NCBI RefSeq assembly: GCF_009831575.1
Contig: NZ_WUUT01000006.1
Span: 1 to 64,000, forward strand
Direction of reading: 5' to 3'
DNA: 64,000 nucleotides
From: Halovenus carboxidivorans
Lineage (GTDB): Archaea; Halobacteriota; Halobacteria; Halobacteriales; Haloarculaceae
Shown: in pieces, positions 11,472 to 16,883 of the stretch
How positions within the stretch are numbered: position 1 is the first letter of the stretch
Layout of the letters: every line of letters starts with the position of its first letter
The notes under the pieces: model-generated
Databases searched by the model: none
Seen by the model: the letters and a program-made list of their open reading frames with translations, nothing else
Told to the model about the DNA's origin: nothing
Made by a program: the position numbers and the translations under genes

Positions 11472-12136
11472 TGTACGACCTCTCTGCTGTCCTCGGGTTC
11501 GATTGGGCCGTGACGCTGGGTCCCGGTACGACGCTCTGTCTCGCCGACACGGACGGAACCGACCCGACTCGCTGGGTCGACGCGGTGCTTGCGGACGGAC
11601 TCCGCAACGGTGAAGCCGCGGTTCTCGTCTCGATGGACCGACCGGCGACGGCCGCGCTCGACGACCTCGGCGCAGACGTTGCGCCCCGGTCCGTCTGCGT
11701 GATCGACTGTCAGGGCACGGAACGGACACGCCGGACGCTCGACGACGGGACGTTCGTCTACAGCGTCCCCGACGCCGACGATCTTACGGGAATCGGAATC
11801 GGACTCACGGCCTGTCTCGATCGGCTCGCGGCCGCGGGTCACGACCGCGGCCGAGTCGGCTTTCACTCGTTTGGAGTGATCCTCGACCGGGTCGGCCAGC
11901 AGGCGGCGTTCAAATTTGCTCACGTCGTCTCCTCGCGGCTGGAGTCGGCCGGGTTTCTCGGCGCCTTCGGGCTCGAACAGCCACACAGTCCGAAGTCGAG
12001 GCGGATTCTCGGGGAGGCGTTCGACCGGACACTCGAACTCAGGCAGGGCGCACAGGGCCCCGAGGGACGGACTCTGGGACGGCGGGGCGACTCGGGTCCG
12101 TGGAGAGCCGTCCCGGCGGCCGAGTCAGATCGGTAG
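11471..12136 (+). CDS. DUF7504-like haloarchaeal signalling protein
   Basis: A 221-aa protein with a RecA/KaiC-like alternation of strands and helices but no Walker A loop at the expected place (LGPGTTLCLADTDGTDP instead). Later segments LVSMDRPATAALDDLG, VCVIDCQGTER and RVGFHSFGVILD are the parts I associate with the haloarchaeal DUF7504 group, often found near response regulators. The start codon overlaps the HalX regulator stop by 1 nt. The C-terminal 30 residues (from RQGAQGPEG) look low-complexity and unconserved. It ends 12 nt inside the end of the convergent PAP2 gene. Confidence 0.6.
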   Translation: MYDLSAVLGFDWAVTLGPGTTLCLADTDGTDPTRWVDAVLADGLRNGEAAVLVSMDRPATAALDDLGADVAPRSVCVIDCQGTERTRRTLDDGTFVYSVPDADDLTGIGIGLTACLDRLAAAGHDRGRVGFHSFGVILDRVGQQAAFKFAHVVSSRLESAGFLGAFGLEQPHSPKSRRILGEAFDRTLELRQGAQGPEGRTLGRRGDSGPWRAVPAAESDR

Positions 12137-13030
12137 ATCGATCCGCTCGCTGGTGAACTTCCGGAGGCGTTCGACGCCGGCCCGGGCGAACCGGTCGATC
12201 GGCTCCCGAAGCCGACGGCCGACGGTCCCGACTCGCCCGTCGAGGTTCGACGGGTCGGTCAGCCAGGCCGCCGCCCGGACGCTGATACACGCGAGGACGG
12301 CCCCGGCGACAACGTCGGTCAGCCAGTGGATCCCGAGATACATCGTCGAGACGATGACCGACAGCGCCAGCACGACCGATATCGGAAGCCAGGCGGGATA
12401 CTCCTCGCGGGTCCGGTAGGCCAGCAGGGCAACGGTGACCGCCAGAGAGGTGTGCAGCGAAGGGAAGACGTTGACGTTCGCGTTCACCTCGGTCGTGAGG
12501 AGATTGGCCTCCGGCCAGTAGACGTACAGCAGTTGGTCGACGATATCCGGCATGACGTTGCGCGGTCCGTACGCGATAAACAGCAGGTAGCAGAACACGC
12601 CGATCACGTAGTTGAGCGCGTACGAGATGATCGTCTCCCGGACCGGCCGGTCGTCACGCATCACGAGATACGCGACGACGGGGAACACGAGCAGGAAGAC
12701 GTAGCCGTAGATGTAGGTGTAGGAGAAATACACCGTCGCGGCGGGGGTGGCGTAGCTCTGCAGGACCGCGACGAACTCCCCTTCCAGCGCGAATATCTCG
12801 TCGGTGATCTGCCAGTTGAGCAGCCACGACAGCCGCGGGCCGACCGCGCGAAGCACCGAGTTGACGATCAGAACGCAGACGAGCAGCAGAATGTACGGGA
12901 ACAGGTAGAACAACCGGTCCGACGCCTCGGTTCGGAACTCCCAGATCCGGTCGAGGCCGACGATAGTGACGGCTCCCGCGACGATCAACACGGTTACGAC
13001 GACGCTGATATCGGGGAGTAGCGGGATCAT
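12125..13030 (-). CDS. PAP2-family membrane phosphatase
   Basis: A 301-aa protein with about seven membrane helices. The two late phosphatase motifs are clear: FPSLHTSLAV (motif 2, Ser-x-His) and YLGIHWLTDVVAG (motif 3, catalytic His). The first motif would be near FIAYGPRNVMPD (residues about 150-162) and is weak (Arg in GPRN). This arrangement is common in lipid-phosphate phosphatase or inositolphosphotransferase-like members, which act on lipid headgroups on the outer membrane face. Its start overlaps the stop of the upstream solute-binding protein gene by 4 nt, so the two are coupled. Confidence 0.85.
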   Translation of the reverse strand: MIPLLPDISVVVTVLIVAGAVTIVGLDRIWEFRTEASDRLFYLFPYILLLVCVLIVNSVLRAVGPRLSWLLNWQITDEIFALEGEFVAVLQSYATPAATVYFSYTYIYGYVFLLVFPVVAYLVMRDDRPVRETIISYALNYVIGVFCYLLFIAYGPRNVMPDIVDQLLYVYWPEANLLTTEVNANVNVFPSLHTSLAVTVALLAYRTREEYPAWLPISVVLALSVIVSTMYLGIHWLTDVVAGAVLACISVRAAAWLTDPSNLDGRVGTVGRRLREPIDRFARAGVERLRKFTSERIDLPI

Positions 13031-14823
13031 CGGAGGATGAGCGTATCGTTTTCGTCGAATGCGAAGCCGCGCTCGCGAAACGCCGCCCGGGCCGCCTCGA
13101 CGTCGACATCACCGCCGGAGCCGATGAACGGGACGACGGGGTCCTCGCCGTCGAAGGATAACTCCTCGGGATTCCACCTCGTGCCGTCGAACGGATGTGC
13201 CACCGGTCGCCCGTACCCCTCGAAAATCTCGTCGGCGACGTAGTTCTTGTCGACGAGCCGAGCCACCAGTCGGCGGAAATACGGGTTACTGAACGGTGCG
13301 ACTCCGGTGTTGTATCCGATCTGGTACGGCGAGTGTGACTGTTCGGTGAACTGCGATACCCCTGACGCGCTGATAATCCGCTCGATGACGGCTCCTCGGG
13401 GGTCGACGCTGGTCGCGGTCGCGTCGATCTCGCCGTCGGCGACCAAACTGACCGCCGCCTCGTTCGACGGCACGACCGTGAACTCTACCCTGTCGAAGGC
13501 CGGTTCACCGATGAACGCATCGGGAATCTCTTCGAGAATCCCCGCGCCGCGCTGGAGGAAATGGTCGTTGAACGGCCGGAGTACGACCGATTCGTCCGTC
13601 GTGACCTGTTCGACGGTGAGCGGTCCGCTCCCGACGGCTTCGATGTTCGAACTGACAATCGCGTTGGTGATGTTGTCCGATCCCTCGATTCCCTGGATGT
13701 CGGCAACGTCGCTCATCTCGCGCCAGATGTGCTCCGGAAACACCGGTACCGTCAGCGCGTGGACGCCGACCTCGCGGCTCGTCTCGACCATCGAGAGTTC
13801 GACGGTCGTGTCGTCGACGGCGTAGGCGTCGGAGACGAGGTCGCTCCAGGCCCGAAACCGCGGCGCCGGGACGGTCTGTGCGACCGTGCCCAGCGACGTG
13901 TCCGCGAGAAACTGGTAGGTGAAGGCAACGTCGCTGGCGGTGAGACTGGTGCCGTCGTGCCAGCGCTGTCCCGGCCGGAGCGAGACGCGGAGCCGACCCG
14001 AGTCCCAGCTGTACTCGGAGGCCAGCCAGGGGACGAACTCCCCCTCGATCAGCCGCACCGGTGGGTCGTACAGCAGGTCCGTCACGGGGTTCATCCGGCG
14101 GTACTCGGCGGACAGCGGGTTGAGGTTCTGCGACATCCGGGCGTCAGCGGAGCCCAGCCGCAGGACGAGTTCCTCGGAGGCCGAGACGCCGGTCGCCCGG
14201 TCGAGGGTGAGATAGGACAGCGGATTCTGCAGCGGGTATCGCTCCCAGCCGGTGAAGTTGTCGGTCCGGGCGGCCCGGATCTCGTCGGGGAACGCGACGG
14301 TCGTGAACGGCTGTTCGCGACAGAGCAACTCCAGGGCCTCCCCGACCGCCTCCCGGCGCTGTGTACCTGCCGTCGCGCGCTGGCGTTCGAGCGCGTCGTC
14401 GAGCGAGAGGCTCGCGTATCTGTACGGGTTCTGCCAGCCCGGCTCGGTCGCGTACACCGAGTGCAACAGCCCGTACAGCGCCTGTGGATCGTCCATCGGT
14501 GGGATCTGGGCGATGAACAGATCGAAGTTCCCGTTCAGGAGCACCTCGCGGTAGAGTTCGGTCTCGGGCAACACGTTCAGCGTCGCGTTGATCCCGACCG
14601 CTTCGAGATTCTCGACGAGGTGGCGCGCGAGCAGCGTCGCCATCCGATCCGAGTCCGCCGGCGGCGCGGTCACCGACAGCGACACCGCGGAGGGCGAGTC
14701 GCGGTTGAGAATGCTCCTGATCCGCTGGATACAGCCGCTGGTGGAGGCGAGCGTGAGCCCCGCCGCTCCGCCCAGAAGCTCCCGCCTGCTGATTGTCGGC
14801 CCGTCTGCCGCGGCTGTTTCCAT
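13027..14823 (-). CDS. Peptide/nickel-type solute-binding lipoprotein, apparently circularly permuted
   Basis: A 598-aa secreted protein: Tat motif SRRELLGG at 12-19, lipobox Cys at 31. It belongs to the family 5 extracellular solute-binding proteins, but the order is unusual. Residues about 45-205 look like the usual C-terminal part: LSVTAPPADSDRMATLLARH, LEAVGINATLNVLPE, GNFDLFIAQIPPMDDPQA, then the P-F-T-T-V-A-F-P tail region. Residues about 218-598 then begin like a normal mature N-terminus (LRLGSADARMSQNLNPLSAEY) and carry the family signature GQRWHDGTSLTASDVAFTYQF at 285-305. The protein stops at AARAAFRERGFAFDENDTLI, where an ordinary member would continue into the segment found here at the N-terminus. 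No ABC permease or ATPase is adjacent. Coupled by 4 nt to the PAP2 gene. Confidence 0.85.
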   Translation of the reverse strand: METAAADGPTISRRELLGGAAGLTLASTSGCIQRIRSILNRDSPSAVSLSVTAPPADSDRMATLLARHLVENLEAVGINATLNVLPETELYREVLLNGNFDLFIAQIPPMDDPQALYGLLHSVYATEPGWQNPYRYASLSLDDALERQRATAGTQRREAVGEALELLCREQPFTTVAFPDEIRAARTDNFTGWERYPLQNPLSYLTLDRATGVSASEELVLRLGSADARMSQNLNPLSAEYRRMNPVTDLLYDPPVRLIEGEFVPWLASEYSWDSGRLRVSLRPGQRWHDGTSLTASDVAFTYQFLADTSLGTVAQTVPAPRFRAWSDLVSDAYAVDDTTVELSMVETSREVGVHALTVPVFPEHIWREMSDVADIQGIEGSDNITNAIVSSNIEAVGSGPLTVEQVTTDESVVLRPFNDHFLQRGAGILEEIPDAFIGEPAFDRVEFTVVPSNEAAVSLVADGEIDATATSVDPRGAVIERIISASGVSQFTEQSHSPYQIGYNTGVAPFSNPYFRRLVARLVDKNYVADEIFEGYGRPVAHPFDGTRWNPEELSFDGEDPVVPFIGSGGDVDVEAARAAFRERGFAFDENDTLILR

Positions 14824-14904: not shown

Positions 14905-15912
14905 TTACAACACGGCGTCGAGCACGGCCGCCGCGCCGTCCCGCACGGGGTCGGTCACCGGCGCGTCGAGCGCCTGTTCGTACGCGTCGAGACGCTGGTC
15001 GGCTTCGTCTCTGTCGAGGGCAGCGGTGTTGAGAAAGCCGGCGTCGACGGTCGCACCGGAGACCGGCGCGGCCATCGACTCGTACAGTTGCGCGTACGAC
15101 CCCGGGTCCGGCAACTCGAAGCGCTCGTAGCCGCCGACGCGTTGGCGACCGGCGACGTGACAGAGCACCAGCGAGTCCGGCTGTGCCCCGTGGAGGATGG
15201 CCGTCGTGACTCCCGAGTAGGCCGGGTGAGCGAGCGCTCCCTGCCCCTCGACGAAGAGCACGTCGTGATCGGCGGCCGCTGTGACGAGTCGTTCGGTCGC
15301 ACCGGCGGCGAAGTCGGAGATGACCCGGTCGATGGCGATGCCCCGCCCCGAGATCATGATGCCCGTCTGACCTGTCGGGACCACGGCGGCGTCGAGCCCT
15401 CGCTCGCGGGCCGCCGCCCGTAGCTCGTAGGCGCCGGTCATCTTCCCCGACGAGCAGTCCGTCCCGACGGTCAGTACGACGCGAGCGTCCACGTCTCCCG
15501 CGGTCCCCGAGGCGACCGTGAGATCCTCCGGCGGCCGGCGCACGTCCCGTATCTCCCCGGCGTGTTCCTCGGCCAGCGCACGGAACTGTTCGTCCTCGCC
15601 GAGCAGGTAGTGGAGTCCGGCGACGACATCACAGCCCCGTCGTAGCGCGGCCGCCACGTCGGGCCGCCAACTCTCCTCGAAGCCGCCGCCGATCGGTGCG
15701 ATGCCGATCAACAGAGCGTCACACTCGGGGGCATCGTCCATCTCCGCGACGATGGGTGCGTCCTGTACATCGGGGAGGTGATCCCGGACGCGCTGGCCGG
15801 CCCGCTCGCGGTCGAGTACCGCGACCGCGTCGTGGTCGCTGTACCGGAGCACCCCGACGGCCGTCTTGGCGTCGTCCGGAAACTGCTCGTGGGCGAGAAT
15901 CGCAACCCGCAT
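14905..15912 (-). CDS. DUF1611 family P-loop protein (DgcN-like)
   Basis: A 335-aa protein. An N-terminal Rossmann-like domain (residues 1-125) includes DALLIGIAPIGGGFEESW. The C-terminal P-loop domain carries GTDCSSGKMT at 150-159 and VPTGQTGIMISGRGIAIDRVISDFAAG. This is the DUF1611 layout. Bacterial relatives (DgcN) pair with a dipeptide or glutamate epimerase and may acylate amino acids, but no epimerase gene is adjacent here. Start at the ATG at 15912 gives the conserved MRVAILAHE. It lies 81 bp upstream of the solute-binding protein gene on the same strand. Confidence 0.85.
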   Translation of the reverse strand: MRVAILAHEQFPDDAKTAVGVLRYSDHDAVAVLDRERAGQRVRDHLPDVQDAPIVAEMDDAPECDALLIGIAPIGGGFEESWRPDVAAALRRGCDVVAGLHYLLGEDEQFRALAEEHAGEIRDVRRPPEDLTVASGTAGDVDARVVLTVGTDCSSGKMTGAYELRAAARERGLDAAVVPTGQTGIMISGRGIAIDRVISDFAAGATERLVTAAADHDVLFVEGQGALAHPAYSGVTTAILHGAQPDSLVLCHVAGRQRVGGYERFELPDPGSYAQLYESMAAPVSGATVDAGFLNTAALDRDEADQRLDAYEQALDAPVTDPVRDGAAAVLDAVL

Positions 15913-15989
15913 AGCTGTACACGCGAGTGGGCAACGGGTAAATCTGATCCCTCGGGCCGACACCGACAGCGCCGAGACGCGCCGCCAAC

Positions 15990-16883
15990 TCACAGGGTGC
16001 GAACCGGCACGGACCAGAACTGCTCGGCGGCCTCGCCAAGCGCCTCCTCGGGCGGTCCGGTGGCGCCGACGGCGCTGGTCACGTCGGCGCTGTCGTCGAG
16101 TTCACCGAGAACGGACCGCTCGCCGACGAGATACAGTCGCTCCGCGTCGCGTTCTTCGAGGGCCGCCCGACACCGGTCGAGATGGGTGTCGATCTGCTCG
16201 TCGCGCAGTCGCTCGAAGCGACCCTGTGAGAACCCGCCCTTGGAATGTTGGCTCTTGAGATCGCTGTCGAAGCCGTGGAAGCCGACACGCTCGTCGCCCT
16301 CGTAGGTGCCCATCGCGAACAGATCGGACCGAACCAGCGCGAGCGTGTACCGGCCGCGGGGCTGGAACCACTCCCGCTCGAACCCGAACCGCTCACCCCA
16401 CTCGGCAAACGGCTCCGGGCTGACGGGTGGGCGCAGACACGCTCCGATCAGTCCGGCGTCGTCCCCGACGACCAGACAGGGTGCCGCTCGGGCGACCAGC
16501 GGGGTTCGCTCCCCGAAGGCCTCGCGGACCTGCTCCGGGAGGTCGTGTTCGTCCGCGACGTAGGCGGTCAGCGCCCCCTCGGGACCGGTCTCGTACGATT
16601 CGAGGCGGTCGAGCAGTTCGTCGAGCCGCCGCCCGCGGAGGGTCGTTTCGGTGCGGAAGTCGACGCTTTGCTCTTCGCCGTCGAGCCGCTCGACCCGGTC
16701 TTCGAGTTCCTCGACGCGGTCTTCGAGCCTGTTGGCTCGTCGCTGTGCCTGCTGGCGGTCGGTGACGGCGTCGGCGCGGCGGCGCTGTTCGGCCTCCAGT
16801 TGGGCTTCGAGGCTCTCGATCTCGGCTTCGAGTTCCTCGATGCGCTCTTTGAGTTCGGTCCGACCGAGCAGATCGTCCAGCAT
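15990..16883 (-). CDS. Vms1/ANKZF1-like (VLRF1) peptidyl-tRNA hydrolase
   Basis: A 297-aa protein. Residues 8-70 form a long coiled coil rich in Glu, Arg and Leu. The rest has the eRF1-like release fold seen in VLRF1 proteins, with the catalytic-type loop SKGGFSQGRFERLRDE (Gln220), the counterpart of the GGQ of release factors. These proteins free nascent chains from peptidyl-tRNA on split 50S subunits in ribosome quality control. The haloarchaeal/actinobacterial subgroup shares the KGG[F/W]SQxRF pattern. Monocistronic by spacing: 54 bp from the DUF7519-like gene upstream and 77 bp before the DUF1611 start. Confidence 0.85.
   Translation of the reverse strand: MLDDLLGRTELKERIEELEAEIESLEAQLEAEQRRRADAVTDRQQAQRRANRLEDRVEELEDRVERLDGEEQSVDFRTETTLRGRRLDELLDRLESYETGPEGALTAYVADEHDLPEQVREAFGERTPLVARAAPCLVVGDDAGLIGACLRPPVSPEPFAEWGERFGFEREWFQPRGRYTLALVRSDLFAMGTYEGDERVGFHGFDSDLKSQHSKGGFSQGRFERLRDEQIDTHLDRCRAALEERDAERLYLVGERSVLGELDDSADVTSAVGATGPPEEALGEAAEQFWSVPVRTL

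Follow-up and report, generated by a model that had tools for sequence, protein, structure and literature searches.

Cluster C solute-binding proteins (SBPs), such as AppA, DppA, OppA, NikA and TM1223, have permeases as their partners in the canonical case. For a cluster C SBP whose segments occur in circularly permuted order, the nearest natural precedent found is a protein of cluster B, TpMglB-2 (Tp0684) of Treponema pallidum, a naturally permuted, ‘cluster Bc’ glucose-binding protein in which the usually N-terminal strands lie near the C-terminus and which is still viewed as the receptor of an importer (PMC4990184). In the literature, subscription titles being outside the scope of the search, only TpMglB-2 and engineered sensors were found when permuted SBP_bac_5, OppA or DppA proteins were looked for, and no report of an SBP-PAP2 pair or module was found. 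Among membrane enzymes, the closest described systems are Aur1/IPC synthase and LpxE (PAP2_3, PF14378), and we know of no SBP that partners with any of them.

The locus described here lies in a stretch of 64,000 nucleotides of Halovenus carboxidivorans, called the window below. It encodes, from an ATG, a protein of 598 amino acids (13027..14823, minus strand), which the open reading frame, Pfam, PDB and HMM-rotation analyses confirm to be a circularly permuted cluster C (SBP_bac_5) solute-binding lipoprotein. By sequence the protein belongs to the homologous family: Pfam PF00496 matches residues 262-588 (profile positions 1-279 of 368) with 133.4 bits, above the gathering cut-off of 32.4. A further PF00496 match, obtained by six-frame search at window positions 14458-14655, covers profile positions 296-363, with the caveat that this ancestral C-terminal module scores modestly by Pfam in this single protein (E 8e-4). 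The same swap of order appears when the protein is compared with the PDB by phmmer, SBP residues 247-536 aligning with positions 34-295 of the TM1223 chain (4pft/1vr5) and residues 48-203 with positions 359-519; no solved permuted member was seen among the best 60 PDB matches listed for the profiles, in which the second module maps near the N-terminus of the chain. Finally, a comparison HMM of 530 positions, made from 20 canonical SBPs of related genomes, matches residues 38-200 at profile positions 359-518 (50.9 bits) and residues 230-579 at positions 57-357 (128.5 bits). In particular, the protein places the C-terminal part of canonical SBPs first (residues 45-205; 14209..14691, minus strand), continues with a linker that connects the two ancestral termini (residues 206-217; 14173..14208, minus strand), located by the optimum of the rotation scan described below, and ends with what in canonical SBPs makes up the N-terminal and middle portions (residues 218-598; 13030..14172, minus strand).

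Rotation of the sequence brings the two modules back into a single match. Specifically, when the mature sequence was shifted in 10-residue steps and the best single HMM match was scored at each step, the score peaked at 192.6 bits over profile positions 57-518 of 530 with the new N-terminus at residues 205-225, the best unrotated value being 128.6 bits; on TM1223, the rotated protein aligns as one domain (query 37-537, chain 34-507, E 3e-15). The test of a natural circular permutant, namely that rotation yields a single colinear match, is thus met by this protein, and the canonical N-to-C order of segments is not. Because the segments are swapped, the protein is filed as a permuted variant and not as a canonical SBP_bac_5 member. 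In terms of the canonical fold, the break falls between the end of the AGY-type helix and the strand that follows it. These results bear out the earlier note on this DNA, which had proposed a permuted domain order with a junction at about residues 205-218 and had predicted that joining the end to residue 45 would restore the usual order. Moreover, neither of the outcomes that would have refuted it was obtained: residues 45-205 did not turn out to form an unrelated domain, and the unrotated protein is not colinear with canonical SBPs. As the identical order occurs in dozens of independent genomes, it cannot be ascribed to an artefact of assembly or annotation.

Instead of a true permutation, the protein could be a chimera, in which the C-terminal fragment of another SBP became fused to the N-terminus of a truncated one. 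The authors of the TpMglB-2 study weighed the same possibility for their protein (PMC4990184), and separate phylogenies of the two modules are lacking here; however, the breakpoint is clean (profile 357/359), no segment is duplicated across it and the swapped order recurs across a wide clan, so that a chimeric origin appears very unlikely.

The structure model, as far as sequential alignment can show, is consistent with a permuted cluster C protein. AlphaFold2, supplied with 43 aligned sequences, returned a single confident model (pLDDT 89.6, pTM 0.87) in which only the first 41 residues are disordered, and the best Foldseek matches of this model are cluster C SBPs only (AppA, NikZ, TM1223 and DppA). 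The alignments, which Foldseek makes sequentially only, extend over about 395 columns of targets of about 480-540 residues, with a target-normalised TM of about 0.5, as expected when a sequential aligner meets a permuted chain. Once rotated, the protein is homologous to cluster C SBPs over nearly its full length, and it has in common with them a lipoprotein-type export signal and, judged by partial, sequential Foldseek alignments only, the fold family, while it differs from them in its swapped segments and in its partner, a PAP2 protein. With TpMglB-2 it shares the natural permutation of an ABC-type binding protein, the tethering to the membrane and the conservation within a clade, but not the type I/cluster B glucose-binding fold, as all PDB sequence and fold matches listed belong to family 5/cluster C. 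The disordered N-terminus corresponds to a Tat signal with a twin arginine at positions 13-14 and a lipobox cysteine at position 31 (residues 1-41; 14701..14823, minus strand). A signal of this kind had already been suspected, and Arg13, Arg14, Gly30 and Cys31 prove invariant in 43/43 aligned homologs, which satisfies the criteria for a Tat-exported lipoprotein.

The gene overlaps the next one by 4 nt (13027..13030, minus strand), so that the 4-nt coupling to a PAP2 gene mentioned in the earlier note is real and takes the form of a stop/start overlap; short overlaps or gaps are also found in most homologous loci. The second gene encodes an integral membrane protein of 301 amino acids (12125..13030, minus strand), which scores 78.4 bits with the PAP2_3 profile of Pfam (cut-off 27) and, with His193, His235 and Asp239 in place, meets the criterion for a PAP2_3 protein. 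Its motifs are YGPRN (residues 154-158; 12557..12571), PSLH (residues 190-193; 12452..12463) and HWLTD (residues 235-239; 12314..12328), all on the minus strand, with Arg157, His193, His235 and Asp239 invariant in A3. The model of this protein (pLDDT 92.3) has Aur1, an IPC synthase and LpxE as its nearest solved folds, and with these enzymes it shares the membrane fold and the PSLH and H...D catalytic motifs. Judging from the intact motifs, the enzyme is likely active, no activity having been shown. Two stand-alone PAP2 paralogs with 40-42% identity and no SBP neighbour are present elsewhere in the same genome (L191 and L192; G000:C3:383388-384137 and G000:C1:577507-578277), and no consistent partner gene was found for stand-alone paralogs.

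A search of other haloarchaea for the same segment order and for adjacent PAP2 genes, which had been suggested as a check, found both widely. Colinear full-length homologs of the SBP, with 37-76% identity, are present in about 80 of the 146 genomes of the GTDB family to which the organism belongs. At the level of the order, matches to the family profile at E <= 1e-40 were obtained in 114 of the 195 sampled genomes and in 47 of 66 genera; about 108 of these 114 genomes score as members of the window subfamily and the rest hold permuted relatives at lower scores. Outside the order, matches to the profile are mostly partial and canonical. A PAP2 homolog adjoins the SBP of the window subfamily in 65/65 loci, usually just downstream, and is the only neighbour common to all of them. 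Moreover, the SBP and the PAP2 protein, the latter detected by single-sequence search in the 146 genomes of the family, occur together in 81 of 82 genomes, while none of the 64 genomes without the SBP has a PAP2 protein of this type (Fisher p 3e-41); in the one genome that departs from the rule, the locus is truncated where its contig ends. Named examples of the pair are those of Halobaculum halophilum and Haloferax gibbonsii, where the records read ‘ABC transporter substrate-binding protein’ and ‘phosphatase PAP2 family protein’.

Some loci depart from the simple arrangement. At L037, L147 and L151, two permuted SBP genes flank one PAP2 gene or SBP-PAP2 pairs stand in tandem. A wider functional neighbourhood was considered and rejected as a rule, as aryl-sulfotransferase-like and GT-C-like membrane genes lie within about 4 kb of the pair in only 14/65 loci. 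Directly upstream of the SBP gene of the window is an open reading frame at 14905-15993 (minus strand), of DUF1611 type by look alone; elsewhere it accompanies the pair in no loci but those of close relatives (L034, L040).

The swapped order is not restricted to the window subfamily. It is also found, with the alignment split into two modules, in distant haloarchaeal SBPs (L089-L094, L138-L146 and L154), in one non-halobacterial archaeon outside the order (L137) and in Alphaproteobacteria of the genera Nitratireductor, Ketogulonicigenium, Roseomonas, Microvirga and Neorhizobium, the canonical order being kept by the DppA of the window genome itself and by other reference SBPs. Most of the distant permuted SBPs lie in or beside dppBCDF-type operons. 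Those of dppABCDF operons (L089-L094, L137-L146, L154 and the alphaproteobacterial L186-L188) share with the window SBP the order and a nearly equal breakpoint (profile about 346-371) but accompany permease and ATPase genes instead of a PAP2 gene, and have about 24-28% identity to it where measured. Since permuted SBPs sit in ordinary dpp import operons, permutation alone does not amount to a loss of transport and is ruled out as a mark of it; for the same reason, the ancestor of the window SBP was probably an importer receptor.

In a tree built after rotating the permuted proteins to canonical order, a split with support 98 sets the canonical SBPs, together with L137 and L144, apart from a side that holds the window subfamily (itself at support 100), the alphaproteobacterial forms and the majority of the dpp-linked ones. 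A single origin of all 30 permuted sequences of a first tree is rejected by the AU test (p 0.006); in a second tree, a single origin is not rejected once L137 alone or L144 alone has been removed (p 0.075 and 0.16, respectively). Recurrent permutation is therefore suggested but not shown, with one to three origins possible. Several of these permutants have features of their own. The SBP of L137 (3430-5172, minus strand; genome G472) stands beside dppBCDF and has a Thr/Pro-rich tail that ends in PGFGVIAVIAGVMAATYLLRRRR; this tail resembles a PGF-CTERM archaeosortase anchor, and thus the protein seems to be tethered at its C-terminus. In the dpp-operon SBPs of G196 (L144:3658-5304, minus strand) and G167 (L145:3757-5403, plus strand) the breakpoint is slightly shifted (profile 346/356), and in the case of L144 the SBP falls together with the window genome's canonical DppA, so that it may have been permuted independently. 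The alphaproteobacterial L186, L187 and L188 are plasmid-borne dpp operons located beside genes for M28 peptidases, hydantoinase/oxoprolinase or racemase, and their permuted SBPs nest within the haloarchaeal dpp-linked ones, which suggests gene transfer between domains.

The relation of the window SBP to importers is different. The earlier note had described the protein as orphaned from permeases, and indeed no ABC permease gene stands beside it, the only match to a Dpp/Opp-type permease in the genome (PF19300) lying on another contig next to a canonical DppA. By Pfam, the PF19300 permease is absent from 7 of 60 genomes that bear the pair, and in six of these seven (G023, G028, G075, G077, G080 and G142, 94-99% complete) there is also no oligo_HPY ATPase (PF08352) and the permuted protein is the sole SBP_bac_5; the seventh, G015, was excluded because of a marginal PF08352 match. 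The main caveat is that permeases were scored as absent by means of Pfam domains, which give weak scores in haloarchaea. The persistence of the pair in six genomes without detected Dpp/Opp parts speaks for retention of the SBP on account of PAP2 and not of Dpp/Opp import. The criterion for an importer receptor, which is to be encoded with, or to depend on, Dpp/Opp permeases and ATPases, is not met by the gene context, the function itself being inferred. On this basis the earlier suggestion of a role other than uptake is supported, if indirectly, for the window subfamily by the perfect linkage to PAP2 and by the six genomes, with the refinement that the permutation as such cannot be tied to a loss of transport. 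It remains conceivable that the protein still acts as receptor for an importer of Dpp/Opp type whose genes lie elsewhere, PAP2 dephosphorylating the substrate before uptake. Related permuted SBPs are the first genes of dppABCDF operons, and most genomes of the subfamily encode at least one such permease, so that borrowing is possible there; this reading is nevertheless judged unlikely in view of the six genomes in which the pair persists although neither a Dpp/Opp permease nor an oligo_HPY ATPase nor another SBP_bac_5 was detected, and of PAP2 as the sole neighbour common to 65 loci.

We therefore consider it somewhat probable that the permuted clamp serves the PAP2 enzyme extracytoplasmically, through ligand supply or regulation, and not an ABC importer, although no ligand, complex or activity has been shown. 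The ancestral C-terminal part comes first, right after the Tat lipoprotein anchor, with the short linker joining the old termini; according to this proposal, the permuted protein would still fold as a ligand-binding clamp at the outer face of the membrane. There it may capture a ligand from outside the cytoplasm, possibly a glycan or a lipid-linked phosphate compound, and either pass it on to the PAP2 phosphatase/phosphotransferase or regulate this enzyme, the active site of which should lie on the outer side. Mannobiose is the ligand of TM1223, the closest relative by sequence among solved structures, and this, together with the 14/65 neighbourhoods of glycan type, is a weak hint at envelope glycans as ligand. 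A sensor lipoprotein is a further possibility, in which binding of a ligand to the SBP would turn PAP2 on or off, or else an envelope lipid or glycan pathway, the ligand itself not serving as a PAP2 substrate. The strict pairing with one membrane enzyme and the dispensability of importers in the six genomes would fit such a sensor, but no signalling domain was found in the SBP by Pfam or in the model and direct evidence for regulation is absent; we hold it to be quite improbable. Extending the proposal of a clamp that serves PAP2, one may speculate, with less than even confidence, that the permuted SBP and PAP2 form a dedicated, transporter-independent extracytoplasmic complex of haloarchaea, with the SBP as substrate-capture or regulatory subunit, and that permutation in the clan has perhaps recurred near one loop.

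In conclusion, natural circular permutation is tolerated in a receptor family that ranks among the largest, and evolution has long kept it there. The permuted SBP offers a ready test of how the connectivity of the lobes relates to the closing of the clamp and to the docking of partners. Moreover, a large share of haloarchaeal genomes carries a conserved SBP-PAP2 pair, for which the automatic annotation as a transport function is probably wrong.
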